Source of the DNA: Bacteroidota bacterium
Lineage (GTDB): Bacteria > Bacteroidota > Ignavibacteria > Kapaibacteriales > UBA2268
Direction: 5' to 3'
Length of the DNA: 59,305 nt
Assembly: GCA_004322215.1 (NCBI GenBank)
Contig: SCSM01000004.1
Coordinates: forward strand, 1 to 59,305
The position numbers and the translations under genes were made by a program. How positions within the stretch are numbered: position 1 is the stretch's first letter; each line of letters starts with the position of its first letter. Of the stretch, positions 18,031-27,738 are shown piece after piece. Under the pieces are notes generated by a model. That model saw only the letters and a list, made by a program, of their open reading frames with translations, was not told where the DNA came from and searched no databases.

Positions 18031-18588
18031 ATGAAAAATAGAAATAATATAATTTTACCCGAGGTACATTCGACAACTGTTATAGGTGTGTTGAAAGACG
18101 GGAAGGCAGCGATGGGAGCTGACGGACAGGTATCATTCAACAATACCGTAATGAAGCATAATGCAAAAAAAGTGAGAAAGGTTTATAATGATAAAATCAT
18201 AGCAGGATTTGCAGGAGCCACCGCGGATGCATTTACATTGCTGCAACGATTCGAAGAAAAGCTCGAAGCCCACAGCGGAAATTTATACAGGGCATCAATA
18301 GAATTAGCAAAAGACTGGAGAACAGACAGGTACCTTAGACGTTTGGAGGCAATGCTTGCCGTTATGGACCCGACCAACGCTTTGCTGATAAGCGGAACAG
18401 GCGATGTAATCGAGCCGGACGACAGGATTATTTCAATCGGTTCAGGTGGACCATATGCATTATCTGCGGCAAGAGCTTTACTCAATCATACAGATAAAAC
18501 AGCTAAAGAAATAGTCGAAGAGTCACTCAAAATAGCAAGCGAAATCTGCATCTACACAAACTCCATTATAACAATTGAAGAATTATAA
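18031..18588 (+). CDS. hslV: HslV, peptidase subunit of the HslUV protease
   Basis: A 185-residue proteasome-like peptidase that forms a dodecamer capped by HslU and degrades misfolded or regulatory proteins in the cytoplasm. Thr15 in STTVIGV aligns with the catalytic Thr1 of E. coli HslV (MTTIVSV), so a 14-residue propeptide must be removed. The family blocks are intact: [49 protein letters not shown] and EICIYTN. It overlaps the alternative TTG start of hslU and directly precedes it, the usual operon arrangement. Confidence 0.95.
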
Positions 18589-18598
18589 AATATCAATT

Positions 18599-20047
18599 AT
18601 GAAAAATACAGACAATAAAAATACAGATTCAATAGTATTGACCGAGAAGCAAAAGAAAATAATCAGGAAAGTTACAGATAATGATTTTTTCAAAAAGCAG
18701 TTAACACCACGCCAAATAGTAAATGAATTAAATAAGTTTATCATAGGGCAGGATGATGCAAAAAAGGCGGTTGCAATTGCACTTAGAAACCGATGGAGAA
18801 GACAGCAAGTACAAACCGAATTAAAGGAAGAAATTCTTCCGAATAATATTATTTTAATCGGTCCGACAGGGGTTGGTAAAACCGAAATAGCACGCCGGCT
18901 TGCAAAGCTTGCAGGTGCCCCATTTGTAAAAGTTGAAGCGACAAAGTTTACAGAAGTAGGATATGTGGGAAGGGATGTCGAGTCAATGATTCGTGACCTT
19001 GTTGACAGGTCAGTTTCAATGGTGAAGGAAGAAAAGACTGCTGAAAAGCTGAAAGAGGCAAGAATTGCGGCTGAAAACAGGGTGCTTGACATTTTGATAC
19101 CCCCTGTTAAAAAAAGTCCGTCATTCGATACGGCTACCGATACAGACATTGAAGAAAATGCAAAGACGCGTGAAAAATTCCGCGAGATGTTGAAAAACGG
19201 CAAACTGAATGACAGGAATATTGAAATTGATATGATGGTTGACCAGGTTCCCTCACTCCAGGTGTTGGGACCAATCGGACTCGATGAGATGGGAATGAAT
19301 CTTCAGGATATGTTCGGGAGCTTGATTCCGAAGAAAAACAAGAAGAGGGTTTTAACGGTTTCAGAAGCTTTGAAGGTGCTAGAAAAAGAGGAAGTCGAAA
19401 AACTGATTGACATGGAAGCCGTAGTAAAAGAAGCAGTATTGAGAGCAGAAAATTCGGGAATCATTTTCGTAGATGAAATAGATAAAATTGCATCGCGAGG
19501 AGGTGCAAGCGGTTCCGGACCAGAAGTTTCGAGGGAAGGGGTGCAGCGGGATTTACTTCCAATTGTCGAAGGCACAAGCGTTAACACTAAATACGGGCAT
19601 GTTCATTCAGACCATGTATTATTCATTGCATCGGGAGCATTCCATGTATCGAAGCCGGCAGACTTAATACCCGAATTACAGGGACGGTTCCCTATCAGAG
19701 TGGAATTGAAAAGCTTGACAAAAGATGACTTCGTAAAGATATTGACAATACCCGAGAACGCACTTATAAAACAATACCAGGCGTTAATAGAATCCGAAGG
19801 TATAAAACTTGAATTCGACAGCTCAGCCATAGAGGAAATTGCATCAATTGCCGAACAGGTCAATGACGAAGTTACAAACATTGGTGCAAGACGTCTTCAC
19901 ACAATACTCACGACTTTACTCGACGACATACTTTACAACACACCCGACAACATCGAGAATGAGACATTCACAATTGATGCCAAGCGTGTCAACGATAAGC
20001 TCAAAGACATAGTCAAGAGCAGCGATTTGAGCAGATTTATATTATAG
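18599..20047 (+). CDS. hslU: HslU, ATPase subunit of the HslUV protease
   Basis: A 482-residue AAA+ unfoldase that feeds substrates to HslV. Visible features are the Walker A motif GPTGVGKTE, the pore-loop motif GYVGRDVES, an intermediate domain of about 150 residues, Walker B (FVDEIDKI), the sensor/box region GRFPIRVEL, the arginine-containing GARRL, and the C-terminal DLSRFIL that inserts into HslV and is identical to that of E. coli HslU. A TTG at 18575 would overlap hslV, but the ATG at 18599 is more likely. Translation is probably coupled with hslV, which ends ten bases before it. Confidence 0.95.
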
Positions 20048-21397: not shown

Positions 21398-24300
21398 ATG
21401 TTTTACAGACATATTATTGCGTTTACCGTAATACTAATATTAGCAAGCCCGGTTCCCAGCCAGAGCCAAATAATAATCAACGAAATAATGGCATCAAGCT
21501 ATCAGTCCGCTTTCGATGAGGACAACGACTCACCCGATTGGATTGAACTTTATAATAACACCTCAACAGCGTTAAATCTTAAAGGATACAGAATTTCAGA
21601 CAAAAAAAACTTTTCCGGTGCATGGAAATTTCCCGATACATATCTGAATGCAGGGGAAAGATTATTGGTATTTGCATCGGATAAAAACCGTACGGGTTCG
21701 AATAAGTATGTAATTGAAGCAAGTGGTGAAGGAATCAATCAGTATGAATATGATGATGGATTCAGGTTCGAATATCTGAAAATAGCAGGCGATTACGATA
21801 TTCAAATGCGTGTAAATTCTTTACGAAATTCATATTTTAACGGTTCAGCCGGACTGATAATGCGAGAAGGTATCGATGAGAGAAGCAAATTCGCAGGAGT
21901 TTTTTGCTTTAACCCGGATAATTTTACTTTTATTATCAGAAAAGAAGAAGGGACATATCCTGAAATAGCACCTTCTACAATTTTCAAACTCAAATATCCC
22001 AACGGGTGGGTGCGGCTGAAAAGGCAGGGAGATTCTGTTTCCGGATATACAAAGGACCTGGGGGGTCATTGGTACTTAATTAAAACTTATTATTACCCTG
22101 CTCCCAATTCTATGTTTGTCGGAATAGCGGTATCATCATCAAAAGAAGATATGTTGGCAAAGGCAGTGGTATCGGATTTAATATTAGATGGGAAAGCAAT
22201 GAATTATGATACATTGTCCGGTGTTGAAATAAATACCGATATTACAGGTAAAAGTTATTATTCAAATGAGTTACATACAGACTTCAAATTGAGTTCAGAT
22301 GGAGAAACATTATACTTGTGGAATTCTGCCGGAGAATTATCAGATTCAATGAGTTTTCCTGCTCTTACTTCTGATGTTTCTTATGGGCGATACCCTGATG
22401 GCAGTGTTGAAAGAGAGTATTTTTCACCTTCAACTCCCGGTAACAGTAACCAAAAGGGTAATTCAGGTTATGCAGAATTGCCGAAATTAAATATACCGGC
22501 GGGATGGTACAATAACCAATTATTATTAAGGTTTGAAAACAATAATCCGAATTTGCAAATAAGGTACACAACTGACGGAACTGATGTATCCGATACATCT
22601 ACTATATATGATAAAAATTCAATCGTGATTGACAGTTCAGTAGTAATCAGGGCAAAAGCATACCAGGAAAATTTATTTCCATCAAAAGAAATTGTAAATA
22701 CATATATATTGAATGACAATAGTTCACTGCCGGTAGTATCATTCGCAATCAGCCCTAAATTGCTATGGGACACAGTTTCAGGCATATTTAACAATAAAAA
22801 TATTTGGCCTGCTCCTGAAATTGAAGGCAATTTCGAATTATTTGATAATTCAAAAACCAGGGTATTTTCAAGTCATTCGGAATTGAGTGTACACGGAGGT
22901 AATTCCCGCACTTATGCACAAAAATCATTAAAGCTGACTTCGCGTGGCAGATACGAATCATCAACTTTTGTATACCCGTTTTTTGGTAATAATTACCTCG
23001 ATGAATTTAATGGAATAATTTTCAGAAATTCCGGAATTGACTGGCAGGATTCAAAATTAAGAGATGCATTATGTTCAGTAATTTCAGAACAAATACCCTC
23101 TCAAAGAATGGCGAAATACCGTCCTTATGTCTCATTTCTGAATGGCAGGTATTGGGGACTCTACGATTTAAGGGAAAAACTCGATGAATTTTATTTAAGT
23201 AAGAATTACCATTTGCCTGTTGAAGGTATAAATATCATAGACCAGGATGAATTTATTATGTACGGCAGGATAGATGAATATGATGACATGAAAAGTAAAT
23301 TATTTAGTTCCGATATGTCGAAAGAAGAATCATATAAAACGATTGACAGCTTAATTGATATCGAGAACCTGATTGATTATCTTTCATTGGAAATTTACTG
23401 TAATAACATGGACTGGCCCTGGAACAACATCAAAGTATGGAACTCAGTCAAATACGACGGCAAATGGAGGTGGATGCTGCATGATTTAGACTGGACATTC
23501 GGACTATGGGGTGCAGACGCAAGTTTTGATGTAATGAAGGATGTCCTGGAACCCGATAGATCAAGATTCACAAAATTATTTTTAAAGATACTTGAAAATA
23601 ATCAGGTCAGGGAAAGATTCCTTAATAAATTTGCGGATTTAATGAACAGTGTATTTCTGCCGAACAGGTTAAATAAGTTGCTTGACAGTCTTGCAGAAGG
23701 GATCGAGCCGGAAATGCAAAGGCATATAGATAAATGGGGAATCAGTTATCAAAAATGGCAGGATAAAATCAATAAGATGAGAAATTTCATAAATGAAAGA
23801 CCCGGCTGGCAAAGAACAAATATTGTGAATCATTACGGTCTTTCCGGCTATTCTAAAGTAGCTCTGAATGTAAATATAAGAGGTTCAGGTACAATAAAAA
23901 TTAATACACTGAATATAACAGATTTTCCGTGGGAAGGATATTATTTTAATAAAATACCAGTGCCAATAAAGGCAATATCCGATTCAGGATATAAGTTCAA
24001 AAATTGGAATACAACGCTTTCATTCAATGACAGTACATCTCCGGAACAGATGGTCAATCTTCAGAGTGATGCAATTATAACTGCAAATTTCGATAAAATT
24101 GATGATACCGCAGCCCGGGAAATATGGAGCAATAATTTATCGTGCTATCCCAATCCGTTTAAGGATAAGATAGCTATAAAAGTTATATCAGAAAGCACAC
24201 AAAAAGCTGAGATAGAAATTCAAAATTTATTAGGTCAAAAGTTAAAGACGATAACAACCGATTTTTTATCGTCGGGCATAAATGAATTTACCTGGGATGG

Positions 24301-24403
24301 AACTACTGAAACCGGAAACACAGTGAGTAATGGTATTTATTTTTGTATTCTTTCCACTAATAAAAACAAATTAATTTATAAGATTATTAAATTCTGCAAC
24401 TAA
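21398..24403 (+). CDS. T9SS-exported CotH-kinase protein with a split lamin-tail domain (1001 aa)
   Basis: A signal peptide (1-23) is followed by the first half of a lamin-tail domain (24-100: IIINEIMASS, PDWIELYN, GERLLVFASDKNRTG). A beta-sandwich region like DUF1349 comes next (about 115-275, with GSAGLIMREG). The second half of the lamin-tail fold follows (288-350: LHTDFKLSSDGETLYLW, DVSYGRYPDG, PSTPGNSN). After that come a chitobiase-C-like segment (385-435: YTTDGTDVS), the CotH kinase region (443-810) with RNSGIDWQDSKLRDAL, YWGLYDLREKLDEFYL and HDLDWTFG (695-702), an InlB-type beta repeat (820-898), and a T9SS sorting domain (913-1001, CYPNPF). CotH proteins are atypical protein kinases of spore coats; a surface kinase role here is inference. 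The second CotH gene follows after 11 bases. Confidence 0.85.
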   Translation: MFYRHIIAFTVILILASPVPSQSQIIINEIMASSYQSAFDEDNDSPDWIELYNNTSTALNLKGYRISDKKNFSGAWKFPDTYLNAGERLLVFASDKNRTGSNKYVIEASGEGINQYEYDDGFRFEYLKIAGDYDIQMRVNSLRNSYFNGSAGLIMREGIDERSKFAGVFCFNPDNFTFIIRKEEGTYPEIAPSTIFKLKYPNGWVRLKRQGDSVSGYTKDLGGHWYLIKTYYYPAPNSMFVGIAVSSSKEDMLAKAVVSDLILDGKAMNYDTLSGVEINTDITGKSYYSNELHTDFKLSSDGETLYLWNSAGELSDSMSFPALTSDVSYGRYPDGSVEREYFSPSTPGNSNQKGNSGYAELPKLNIPAGWYNNQLLLRFENNNPNLQIRYTTDGTDVSDTSTIYDKNSIVIDSSVVIRAKAYQENLFPSKEIVNTYILNDNSSLPVVSFAISPKLLWDTVSGIFNNKNIWPAPEIEGNFELFDNSKTRVFSSHSELSVHGGNSRTYAQKSLKLTSRGRYESSTFVYPFFGNNYLDEFNGIIFRNSGIDWQDSKLRDALCSVISEQIPSQRMAKYRPYVSFLNGRYWGLYDLREKLDEFYLSKNYHLPVEGINIIDQDEFIMYGRIDEYDDMKSKLFSSDMSKEESYKTIDSLIDIENLIDYLSLEIYCNNMDWPWNNIKVWNSVKYDGKWRWMLHDLDWTFGLWGADASFDVMKDVLEPDRSRFTKLFLKILENNQVRERFLNKFADLMNSVFLPNRLNKLLDSLAEGIEPEMQRHIDKWGISYQKWQDKINKMRNFINERPGWQRTNIVNHYGLSGYSKVALNVNIRGSGTIKINTLNITDFPWEGYYFNKIPVPIKAISDSGYKFKNWNTTLSFNDSTSPEQMVNLQSDAIITANFDKIDDTAAREIWSNNLSCYPNPFKDKIAIKVISESTQKAEIEIQNLLGQKLKTITTDFLSSGINEFTWDGTTETGNTVSNGIYFCILSTNKNKLIYKIIKFCN

Positions 24404-24414
24404 GGAGAAATCAA

Positions 24415-27400
24415 ATGAGGACATACATTTTTCTGGCAATATTAATTGTTATAATCGGCTTTGGAAAAGCACATGCAGTCGAAGAATATTATTTGACTTG
24501 CGACCCGGCAAAGCTACAGGAAATCTACGACAGGTACAATGAAGATATTTATATTGACGCAACATTGACATTGAAGGGAAGAACCTGGCAGGATGTTCAA
24601 TTCAGAATTCACGGACAAGATACGAGAGCATATCCAAAAAAATCCATAAAGGTCAAATTTAATGGCGAACCGTTTCTTGACAGCATTGTAGAATTTAATT
24701 TTAATGCTGAATATGGTGATAAATCGTACATGAGACAATATTTATCCGCAAGGATTATGAGAGAGTCAGGAATGCAATGTTTCAATGCTACATTCGCAAG
24801 ATTGTACATCAATGGTGAATATTACGGATTGTATCTCATGATTGAGCAGGTGGGAAAAAGATTTTTGCGTGACCGCGGCTTAAATGATGAAGGGAATTTA
24901 TACAAGGCATCACTCCAAAACCTTTCATGTCTCAGTAAATGGGATAATATCGAACTTGGCTGGGAAAAGAAAACCAATGAAGGACAGGGTACCGAAGACC
25001 TTGCTGAATTAATCAGAAAATTAGATGTAGAACCAGACAGTACGTTTTATAATCTTACACATGAAATATTCGATTATAATCAAATGATAAACTTTCTTGC
25101 GCTAAATATTGTAATATCAAATACCAGTACATATTATCATAATTATTTTATGTATAATGACATGTATGGTACAAAGAAATGGTATATATTGCCCTGGGAC
25201 ATGGACAAAACCCTTGGTGCATGGTGGCCTGGGGAGCAATATAATTACAATTCATCAAGGCCTGATAACCCTATATATGAAAAGTCATTTCTGATAAAAC
25301 AAATCTTTAACGACGTTCAGAACAGAATTGATGAAATTTGCAATACCGTATTTAATTCAAATCATCTGTATCCGATAATTGACAGTCTGATTACGGATTT
25401 AAAACCTTCAGTGATAGAAGATAACAAAGACAAAATAGCAGACACGACGGTTTGGATGGGTGGAATCGATATGAATAAATATTTTATCGGTTCGAGATAT
25501 ACAGAATTAAATAAGCAGTATCCGATTATACCAAGAGTTTTCAGGGTTGACCCGACAGAAGGGACCTATACCGGAGACATTAAATTAGTGTGGCATCCAT
25601 GTACTTTCCCAGAAGATGTTGCTATAAAATACAGAGTAACTTATTCGACTGATGTTTACTTGCTCGATTCTGCCAAAACAAAGTGGATTAACGAAATAAC
25701 CGATACAACTTATACAATTCCAAAATCGGAACTGAAAGAAGGGACATACTATTGGAAAATTTCTGCATTAGCCAATGGTAAGGATGTTGACGGTTATGAT
25801 AATTTTAATAAATTTACATTTAAAAACGGAACTGTTCTACCCTGCCAGATTACTCAAAACACAACATTGACAAAAGACGGCTCACCTTATAGTATTGATT
25901 GCAACTTTGAAGTTACTAATAATGCAACTTTAACAATCAAAAACGGTGTGGAGCTTTACATACTCAATAATTCACAGGTTGATATAAGAGGCAGTCTGAG
26001 GGTAGAAGGAACACAAAGCGAACCAGTGATAATTAAATCAATCAGCGACGACACTACATCCAATTTAGTAAGGGTATTTAACGGAAATGGCGATTCCTGG
26101 CTGAAGTTCGCAGATGTTAAAGATATTTATATTTATTTCCTGACCGGTTCAGGAGTATTAATAGAGGATTCAAAATTCAATTATGAAAAAGTGGTCAACA
26201 GGTATACATTACATGGTTCCGGGTGCAGCAGCTTTAATTTCAGGAGAAGCTCTTTAACCGGTAATGGAACTCCTTTACCTGAGGGAATGATTATGACAAG
26301 TGTCGGAAATTGCAATGTCGAAGATTCTTATTTCGAGAAAATTATTGACCCTGTAGAATATATGGATGTCAAGAGTGGTTCTATAAAAAATAACCTGATA
26401 AAAAATTCGGTTGATGACGGCATTGATTTGAATGGTTCAAACGGAATCGTAATATCGGGAAACCAAATTTATAATTCTGTAGATAAAGGAATTTCAATTG
26501 GTAATGAAAATTTCGGAAGTGCAAAAAATATAACAATAGAAAGGAATATCATAGCCGGCAATTCTATGGGAATAGGGATAAAAGACAGTGCAGAAGCCAT
26601 TGTAGTTAATTGTACTTTTTATGACAATAATTATGGAATAAAATGTTATGAAAAAAACACCGGATTCGGCGGAGGTGTAATAACAATAAAAAATACAATT
26701 TTTGCAAATTCAAGAACCAAATCAATAGATGTTGATGCTAAGTCCAGGGCAACAGTAACTTATTCAATTTCAAATATCGATTACCTTAAAAGTGTAGGAT
26801 GTTTGAAAGCAGACCCTCAGTTAATTGCACCTGCAAGCAAAAATTTTAACCTGAATAGCAATTCTCCATGCATAAATGCAGGTGACCCAACAAGCCCCAA
26901 TGACCCTGACGGAACAAGAGCAGATATTGGAGCAATACCTTTCAATAACCAAAAAGCTGTTTTGGTAATCAACGAAATTAATTATAATTCTTCATTGGAT
27001 TTTGATTGTGCCGATTGGATTGAGTTTTATAATCCGGGTTCAGAGGATGCCGACATTTCAGATTGGTACTTCAGCGACAGCGACGATTCTCATAAATACT
27101 TATTTCCTAAAGGTACAACCGTTATCAAAGACAGCTTCCTTGTTCTTTGCAGGGACGGTTCACTGTTTTCATCAAAGTTTCCGAATGTGAAAAATTATAT
27201 TGGAAATTTTGAATTCGGACTTGATGCCGCAGGAGAGCTTGTGCGGCTGTTCAACCAGTCAGGAGAAATCATTGATTCACTGACTTATGACGATAAGTTA
27301 CCCTGGCCCGAAGAACCGGATGGGAATGGACCGACACTCGAATTAATATATTATCAGCTCGATAATTCTTTGGCTCAAAGCTGGAAAGCTTCATATACAC

Positions 27401-27738
27401 TACACGGTACTCCTGGAGAGCAGAACTCGGTTTTCACAGGTGTTGAGGATAATTACACACTATCAGGTACTACTTTAAAAGTTTCACCAAATCCAGTAGA
27501 GGGTAATTGCGCAGTTGAAATCACATTAGAAAGTTCAGAGAAAATTTCCCTCGGAGTTTATGATATTAGCGGAAGATTGATTGCAAATTTAATTGACAAG
27601 CAAATAATCGAAGGCGGTCAACACAGATTTAATTTCAATGCTTCAGCTTTAGCTCAGCAATTGTTTTATCTGAAACTTGAAGGATATTATCCTAACCAGG
27701 GTGTAATCTGTGTTCCGGTTGTAAAAATCGGAAAATAG
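24415..27738 (+). CDS. T9SS-exported CotH-kinase / beta-helix / lamin-tail protein (1107 aa)
   Basis: A signal peptide (1-21, ending AHA) is followed by a CotH domain over about 25-365. This includes a RIHGQDTRAYPKKSIKVKF block (64-82), INGEYYGLYLMIEQ (132-145), YYHNYFMYND (240-249) and PWDMDKTLG (260-268); the last two match the nucleotide-binding region of characterised CotH kinases. Next come a fibronectin-III-like segment (375-470), a right-handed beta-helix rich in short N-I-I repeats (480-845), a lamin-tail domain (849-1003) and a T9SS sorting domain (1019-1107, VSPNPVEGN). An AAGGAG motif overlaps the end of the upstream CotH gene, so the two are one operon. Both products should be on the cell surface. 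Substrates are unknown. Confidence 0.87.
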   Translation: MRTYIFLAILIVIIGFGKAHAVEEYYLTCDPAKLQEIYDRYNEDIYIDATLTLKGRTWQDVQFRIHGQDTRAYPKKSIKVKFNGEPFLDSIVEFNFNAEYGDKSYMRQYLSARIMRESGMQCFNATFARLYINGEYYGLYLMIEQVGKRFLRDRGLNDEGNLYKASLQNLSCLSKWDNIELGWEKKTNEGQGTEDLAELIRKLDVEPDSTFYNLTHEIFDYNQMINFLALNIVISNTSTYYHNYFMYNDMYGTKKWYILPWDMDKTLGAWWPGEQYNYNSSRPDNPIYEKSFLIKQIFNDVQNRIDEICNTVFNSNHLYPIIDSLITDLKPSVIEDNKDKIADTTVWMGGIDMNKYFIGSRYTELNKQYPIIPRVFRVDPTEGTYTGDIKLVWHPCTFPEDVAIKYRVTYSTDVYLLDSAKTKWINEITDTTYTIPKSELKEGTYYWKISALANGKDVDGYDNFNKFTFKNGTVLPCQITQNTTLTKDGSPYSIDCNFEVTNNATLTIKNGVELYILNNSQVDIRGSLRVEGTQSEPVIIKSISDDTTSNLVRVFNGNGDSWLKFADVKDIYIYFLTGSGVLIEDSKFNYEKVVNRYTLHGSGCSSFNFRRSSLTGNGTPLPEGMIMTSVGNCNVEDSYFEKIIDPVEYMDVKSGSIKNNLIKNSVDDGIDLNGSNGIVISGNQIYNSVDKGISIGNENFGSAKNITIERNIIAGNSMGIGIKDSAEAIVVNCTFYDNNYGIKCYEKNTGFGGGVITIKNTIFANSRTKSIDVDAKSRATVTYSISNIDYLKSVGCLKADPQLIAPASKNFNLNSNSPCINAGDPTSPNDPDGTRADIGAIPFNNQKAVLVINEINYNSSLDFDCADWIEFYNPGSEDADISDWYFSDSDDSHKYLFPKGTTVIKDSFLVLCRDGSLFSSKFPNVKNYIGNFEFGLDAAGELVRLFNQSGEIIDSLTYDDKLPWPEEPDGNGPTLELIYYQLDNSLAQSWKASYTLHGTPGEQNSVFTGVEDNYTLSGTTLKVSPNPVEGNCAVEITLESSEKISLGVYDISGRLIANLIDKQIIEGGQHRFNFNASALAQQLFYLKLEGYYPNQGVICVPVVKIGK

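Follow-up and report, generated by a model that had tools for sequence, protein, structure and literature searches.

Tandem genes for putatively exported CotH proteins in a Bacteroidota bacterium: one keeps the catalytic aspartate, the other belongs to a clade with serine in its place

Introduction

CotH of Bacillus is a spore-coat enzyme made inside the cell. As given in the available parts of the papers cited in this paragraph, the substitutions D228Q and D251A inactivate B. subtilis CotH (PMC7821199), and CotH holds equivalents of the PKA residues D166, N171 and D184 (PMC12189002). Below, “catalytic Asp” means the residue at B. subtilis D228 (equivalent to PKA D166) and “metal-binding segment” the region of D251. 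Exported CotH domains occur with a lamin-tail domain (LTD) and Fn3 in cellulosomes (PMC6083626, PMC12484212), fungal CotH proteins carry signal peptides (PMC9973265), and Sfz6, a CotH-domain protein, has been described with a Zetaproteobacteria stalk gene cluster (PMC8250860). Among other kinase-fold proteins, Fam20A, in which a single active-site residue is missing from every orthologue, is an activator of Fam20C (PMC4421793, PMC5865150). Here we describe two adjacent CotH genes, ORF1 and ORF2 (open reading frames 1 and 2), in a 59,305-nucleotide stretch of a Bacteroidota genome (GCA_004322215.1, contig SCSM01000004.1, positions 1 to 59,305; the whole stretch is called the window). ORF1 keeps the catalytic Asp and is a candidate kinase; ORF2 has Ser instead, as does almost every member of its clade.

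The original prediction for this locus held that exported CotH kinases acting outside a non-sporulating cell, possibly on T9SS (type IX secretion system) cargo, would be a distinct surface-phosphorylation arrangement. Exported CotH proteins outside spores are in themselves already published, as the available parts of three of these papers indicate (PMC6083626, PMC12484212, PMC9973265). The Asp-to-Ser replacement and the recurrent pairing are the subject of this report.

Results

Active-site residues of the two CotH domains

The two genes and the parts of them that bear on catalysis are as follows.

21398..24403 (+), ORF1, 1001 aa: signal-peptide-like N-terminus, LTD, weak DUF1349, CHB_HEX_C/Fn3_assoc, CotH (Asp-type), Flg_new_2, type A tail of the type IX secretion system (T9SS)
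24415..27738 (+), ORF2, 1107 aa: signal-peptide-like N-terminus, CotH (Ser-type), beta-helix, LTD, near-threshold T9SS tail
22883..23809 (+), CotH domain of ORF1 (Asp-type), by Pfam and predicted fold
23411..23413 (+), ORF1 Asp672, which aligns with B. subtilis D228, the catalytic residue of CotH
24604..25443 (+), CotH domain of ORF2 (Ser-type), by Pfam and predicted fold
25126..25128 (+), ORF2 Ser238 (AGT), in the N-x-S-T-Y-x-H-N-Y loop, replacing the catalytic Asp
25198..25206 (+), ORF2 Asp262-Met-Asp264, conserved metal-binding segment (B. subtilis D251)
25264..25281 (+), ORF2 Asp284-Asn285-Pro286-x-x-Glu289, (near-)invariant in Ser-type CotH, its Asp and Glu rare in Asp-type CotH

Both CotH domains (PF08757) scored far above the curated cut-off of 23.8 bits (ORF1, 132.6 bits; ORF2, 181.8 bits). 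ORF1 reads NMDWPWNN and HDLD, retaining the catalytic Asp, the Asn and the metal-site Asp, and is therefore a candidate kinase. ORF2 reads NTSTYYHNY and WDMD. Here Ser stands for the catalytic Asp in an alignment that is gap-free as far as the Asn, while the Asn (243), both metal-segment Asp residues (262, 264) and the Lys pair are kept. Ser occupied this position in all ten sequences of alignment A1. In 5jd9, a CotH kinase structure from Bacillus cereus, NFDGFVHNY (loop) and IPWDYD (segment) give a spacing of 23, as between D228 and D251. Numbering 5jd9 with the segment Trp as 245 placed a Tyr at residue 142, in agreement with the available part of PMC12189002 and thus supporting the register of the alignment.

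Both proteins had been predicted to keep the CotH active site on the strength of a DxDxTxG motif. This motif is the metal-binding segment; it is kept in both proteins and was rejected as proof of two kinases, the catalytic Asp of ORF2 being replaced by Ser238. Loss of the conserved Asp/Asn residues had been named as evidence that would speak against kinase function: ORF1 keeps both, and ORF2 keeps the Asn and lacks the Asp throughout its clade.

AlphaFold models of the two domains were compared with known structures. The ORF2 model (predicted local distance difference test, pLDDT, 89.5) matched 5jd9 with Z 39.6 over 343 residues at a root-mean-square deviation (rmsd) of 2.2, and the ORF1 model, of middling quality (pLDDT 69.8), with Z 29.6 over 327 residues at rmsd 3.1. 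The best matches to structures other than CotH had Z 11.9 and 12.8, and Fam20C and Fam20A entries reached Z ~10 with the ORF2 model, a distant fold relation. Both CotH domains are thus predicted to adopt the fold of the B. cereus enzyme.

A clade of CotH domains with serine at the catalytic position

A comparison set of 149 distinct CotH domains and 5jd9 gave 150 aligned rows, in which the Ser-type proteins carry N-x-[S/A]-T-Y-x-H-N-Y. A tree was built from 143 of them, seven short or >93% identical rows being dropped. Thirty rows (29 with Ser, one with Ala) were separated from all others by a branch whose support was 100, and removal of the catalytic-loop columns gave the same clade, again with support 100. 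The other 113 rows comprised 112 with Asp and one with Ser. Members of the Ser-type clade came from Kapaibacterium/Ignavibacteria-like genomes, other Bacteroidota (records named Bacteroidales, Flavobacteriales and Sphingobacteriia), Neomarinimicrobiota and Fermentibacteria/Aegiribacteria. The Neomarinimicrobiota member L070 (3-2732) has Ala for Ser and PGD instead of PWD. The single Ser outside the clade belongs to a lone CotH (L030 1-3921, genome G030) on a long branch within the Asp-type part of the tree, possibly a second, independent loss. A recent tandem duplication was rejected as the origin of the pair, the CotH domains of ORF1 and ORF2 being 21.9% identical and in separate clades.

The Asn (243) and the two Asp residues of the metal-binding segment (262, 264) are present in all 31 Ser-type rows, and the Trp in 30 of 31. 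The Lys pair, which we take, like the ion-pair-like Glu discussed below, to have an active-site role in CotH, is also present in 30 of 31 (one gap). Among the Asp-type rows, a class defined as lacking the Ser-type motif, the catalytic Asp was found in 117 of 119, the Asn in 110 and the metal Asp in 118. The clade also has near-invariant residues of its own, namely W183, T239, Y240, H242, D284, N285 and E289. Frequencies within it were 1.0 for T239, Y240, H242 and N285, 0.93 for D284 and 0.97 for E289, those of D284 and E289 in Asp-type rows being 0.09 and 0.03. The column of the adenine-stacking Tyr142 did not discriminate, with Lys in 30/31 Ser-type rows (one gap) and 51/119 others.

Between ORF2 and two congeneric orthologues the CotH domain showed pN 0.11 and pS 0.62–0.73, a ratio that is rough because synonymous sites are near saturation. 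Identity to the congeners was 82% in the CotH domain and 65–70% in the rest of the protein. With pN low relative to pS and the pocket conserved, the possibility that ORF2 is a decaying copy was rejected. Since most other active-site residues are kept and residues of its own are conserved, the Ser-type clade looks repurposed, judged from its alignment, and not decayed.

Ser-type domains present whole or for the most part scored 325–564 bits, and all other CotH domains at most 156, against a profile from A1 that includes the Ser column; two Ser-type sequences cut by contig ends (L081, L082) scored 225 and 166 bits. The Ser and Asp classes used for residue counts, linkage and genome counts were set by a motif that contains the residue itself, and the non-circular evidence for the clade is the loop-free tree and this score gap. 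Genome contigs were scanned, not exhaustively, with patterns that exclude the Ser/Asp column and favour Ser-type look-alikes. A Ser-type-level match was found in one of 395 genomes of a phylum sample, the window's own (577 bits; next 224). The catalytic loop was pattern-readable in ten of the next 17 loci, always with Asp, and unreadable in seven. Ser-type-level scores occurred in eight of 391 genomes of a class sample, the window's included. On these counts the Ser-type clade is rare.

Linkage of Ser-type and Asp-type CotH genes

At 12 of the 30 named loci with a Ser-type gene, a second CotH ORF, not of Ser-type, lay within 250 nt. The same scan also yielded 42 named Asp-type loci, of which three had a second CotH ORF this close. 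Distances were measured throughout between stop-to-stop frames. Where at least 1 kb of sequence was available on each side, the counts were 10/15 and 2/30. In 60 genomes, an Asp-type CotH gene with a DWP motif was present in 8 of 9 with a Ser-type gene and 13 of 51 others; with a looser partner definition (relatives of ORF1) the counts were 8/9 and 18/51. Fisher tests, which ignore relatedness, gave p = 0.001 for linkage and 0.0006 at the genome level.

Eleven of the 12 partners reached the catalytic loop, and all eleven had Asp; the twelfth (L062) was a fragment that ends short of the loop. Counting the window, 12 of 13 adjacent pairs had a readable partner, always with Asp. The partner was upstream in the window's genus and at L060, L061, L062 and L065, downstream at L069, L072 and L075, and divergent at L079 and L080. 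Downstream partners formed a supported tree group of their own, apart from a supported group of upstream and divergent partners.

At two further loci an Asp-type CotH gene lay 1.5–1.8 kb upstream of the Ser-type gene, with a stand-alone beta-helix gene between them (L066 6078-7865, L064 6343-7875), and at L079 a beta-helix gene (509-1615) followed the CotH pair; all three genes match the domain fused into ORF2. Such fusion or fission of the beta-helix, as read from gene order, supports a working link between the paired genes.

A partner near every Ser-type gene was also considered and was refuted by lone Ser-type loci. Since Asp-type CotH genes also occur in pairs (L038, L039, L096, L098, L112), pairing is not exclusive to the Ser-type. 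Neighbouring pairs at the Planctomycetota loci L096, L098, L112 and L113 consist of distantly related CotH genes that both have Asp.

Gene layout, accessory domains and export signals

The remaining features of the pair are listed below.

24402..24407 (+), ribosome-binding site AAGGAG of ORF2, overlapping the ORF1 stop codon TAA at 24401-24403, read directly
24146..24388 (+), T9SS sorting domain of ORF1, by Pfam and NCBIfam
26218..26661 (+), right-handed beta-helix of ORF2, by Pfam; a separate neighbouring gene at three other loci
26950..27288 (+), lamin-tail domain of ORF2, by Pfam
27484..27678 (+), T9SS sorting domain-like tail of ORF2, just under curated cut-offs

The tandem arrangement, the positions of both genes, the 11-base gap between them (24404-24414) and the overlap of the second ribosome-binding site with the first stop, all proposed earlier, were borne out on the sequence. 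The pair was also expected in related genomes and was found in all three other searched genomes of the genus. The pair, predicted to be exported to the surface, is probably transcribed as one operon. In one congener (G001) the ORF1 frame is broken by unread assembly bases and was not counted as a broken gene.

In all three congeners the pair is flanked by the same neighbours, an AAA ATPase gene, a gene for an HMA-domain protein and two ABC transporter genes, the last two inverted in G002. A functional tie to these neighbours was considered; the adjacency is constant, and nothing was found that links them in function. Just upstream of the pair (window 18031-20047) lie a proteasome-family gene (Pfam) and then an AAA ATPase gene, an ordinary arrangement that we read as HslVU-like.

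Pfam confirmed most of the proposed architecture, namely CotH and LTD in both proteins, CHB_HEX_C_1/Fn3_assoc in ORF1 and the beta-helix in ORF2, and added Flg_new_2 in ORF1. DUF1349, proposed for ORF1, stayed below threshold (17.9 versus 32.4 bits) and was dropped as evidence. Among 32 full or partial ORF2 relatives, the window's included and some of them cut by contig ends, Beta_helix was found on the same chain as CotH in 26, LTD in 25 and, at E ≤ 0.001, the Pfam T9SS tail in 18.

A T9SS sorting domain had been assigned to each protein. That of ORF1 was above both cut-offs (Pfam, 31.7 versus 27 bits; NCBIfam, 36.3 versus 23 bits) and that of ORF2 just under both (26.1 versus 27 and 18.5 versus 23 bits); the ORF2 tail is probably real, since 18 of the 32 relatives match the Pfam model. 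The N-termini of both proteins resemble Sec signal peptides by eye. The search for T9SS machinery, which was aimed at SprA alone, found SprA in the same genome, with 963.6 bits as the sum over one frame. T9SS-tail matches there numbered at least 150 (150 scored of 353 candidates). Export by the T9SS, as originally proposed, is therefore plausible for the pair and ordinary for this genome.

The same genome holds a third CotH gene (L001, contig C6), with an Asp-type loop and a T9SS tail at its end (C6:110724-110951). It overlaps by 4 bases (L001 1-3917) an upstream gene of 372 aa from its ATG, whose T9SS tail is its only Pfam match and whose repeat-like sequence is beta-helix-like by eye. Two Bacteroidota Ser-type CotH proteins (L072 7800-10817, L075 7812-10664) have N-termini like lipoprotein signals by eye and no Pfam T9SS tail, so the surface anchor seems exchangeable.

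Discussion

The pair resembles a kinase and a pseudokinase because one CotH keeps the catalytic Asp and the clade of the other has Ser. One member lacks an active-site residue clade-wide, and the neighbouring member keeps it. We therefore propose, tentatively and at somewhat less than an even chance, that ORF1 is an exported candidate kinase and ORF2 its pseudokinase-like partner, by analogy with Fam20C and Fam20A. The two proteins would be co-expressed from the operon and exported to the cell surface, where ORF1 would act as the kinase. ORF2 would bind the Asp-type CotH through its kinase-like fold and tune or scaffold it, and its beta-helix and lamin-tail domains may tie this partner to a surface or matrix target. 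Together, the LTD and beta-helix modules could hold both proteins to a surface polymer or cargo.

Several points weigh against this proposal. Extracellular ATP is scarce, which counts against any exported kinase. We infer ORF1 activity from its residues, and at two sites these depart from Bacillus CotH: the KK shared by Bacillus and ORF2 is QK in the ORF1 domain, and the adenine-stacking Trp of Bacillus is replaced by His. Only 25 of 30 Ser-type rows retain the ion-pair-like Glu. As for the pairing, the counted loci are not independent, three of the 12 paired loci being from the window's genus. At L056, L063 and L067 the available sequence leaves room for a CotH gene beside the Ser-type one but contains none, and at L059, L068, L071 and L076 the shorter flanking sequence also shows none. 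At L073 the only CotH neighbour is an Asp-type gene 4.2 kb away, and genome G014 has a Ser-type gene and no DWP-motif CotH gene.

The Ser-type CotH might instead be an active enzyme with changed chemistry, as in SelO, using a remodelled site of Ser238-Thr-Tyr and Asp284/Glu289 on surface proteins, glycans or its partner. The kept Asn and metal-segment Asp residues, the further residues fixed in the clade and the strong purifying selection on the ORF2 domain fit this idea, as does SelO itself, a kinase fold that performs AMPylation without the catalytic Asp (PMC12409994, available in part). No direct sign of such chemistry was found, however; the kept pocket is also expected of a nucleotide-binding pseudokinase, a stand-alone enzyme does not predict recurrent pairing with an Asp-type CotH, and Asp284/Glu289 are assumed to lie at the active site from their place in the sequence, not from coordinates. 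We regard this explanation as somewhat unlikely. Its broader form, in which the Ser-type clade would be a new enzyme class, we consider unlikely: an exported kinase-fold transferase with a rebuilt site (STYxHNY and DNPxxE) would operate alongside an Asp-type CotH kinase at the cell surface and give Bacteroidota and some neighbouring phyla extracellular protein or glycan modification.

If both proteins were non-catalytic components of the surface or matrix, the CotH fold would be a binding module, for adhesion or polymer binding, beside the lamin-tail, beta-helix and chitobiase-C domains. The adhesin-like modular architecture and the T9SS tails agree with such a role, and we know of no ATP source outside the cell. 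For cellulosomal CotH proteins a structural function has been suggested besides a regulatory one (PMC12484212, in the part available). Pure binders, however, need none of the catalytic residues that are near-invariant in the Asp-type, nor the Asn and metal Asp kept in every Ser-type row, and this explanation appears doubtful. The original prediction implied two exported kinases in one operon, ORF2 being an ordinary protein kinase despite its Ser. The fold and most other active-site residues are indeed kept, and some kinases retain residual activity without a catalytic base, but replacement of the same Asp in D228Q inactivates B. subtilis CotH (PMC7821199, in the part available), and the Ser is fixed clade-wide alongside other clade-specific residues, so this is very unlikely.

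The proposal of a candidate kinase with a pseudokinase-like partner was set against the open-licence literature, in which no description of the Asp-to-Ser CotH clade or its pairing was found. The available parts of PMC9758233 and PMC12189002 describe no CotH pseudokinase clade, and a term search of a review of bacterial pseudokinases (PMC12599244) found no mention of CotH. In the same literature CotH and type IX secretion together gave one paper, on Rhizopus peptides to judge from the part available, type IX secretion with protein kinase and extracellular phosphorylation gave none, and ‘CotH kinase’ with Bacteroidetes gave papers that were off-topic by their titles. Little is known of extracellular phosphorylation in bacteria. 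Exported CotH proteins that recur as one intact and one Asp-lacking member offer a defined setting for asking if bacteria evolved the logic of kinase and pseudokinase seen in the animal secretory pathway, or a chemistry new to the CotH fold. Ser-type proteins also fall under the annotation ‘CotH kinase’, and phosphorylation should not be assumed for them.

The CotH kinase of Bacillus (5jd9/5jda; PF08757) shares the domain fold with both proteins, and ORF1 keeps its Asp, Asn and metal Asp; unlike the pair, it has no LTD, beta-helix or T9SS domain, and ORF2, unlike it, lacks the catalytic Asp. Cellulosomal CotH proteins are attached through dockerins. One of them, Cthe_0239 (LTD, LTD, Fn3, CotH), is exported, as predicted for ORF1, and like ORF1 has LTD and CotH on one chain, but it differs from the window's pair in having no T9SS tail and, in the available part of its description, no Ser-type partner (PMC6083626). 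Fam20C and Fam20A are, as proposed for ORF1 and ORF2, an atypical kinase-fold pair with extracellular targets and one member without one active-site residue (PMC4421793, PMC5865150, each in part). In contrast to ORF2, Fam20A retains the catalytic Asp, and the residue that it has lost is a Glu at the metal/ion-pair site; Fam20C and Fam20A are also animal secretory-pathway proteins whose complex is proven, whereas the pair described here is known from its sequence and predicted folds. The AMPylase SelO, a pseudokinase, belongs to a different family, is not exported by the T9SS and has proven chemistry; like ORF2, it is kinase-like and lacks the catalytic Asp from its usual place (PMC12409994, in part).

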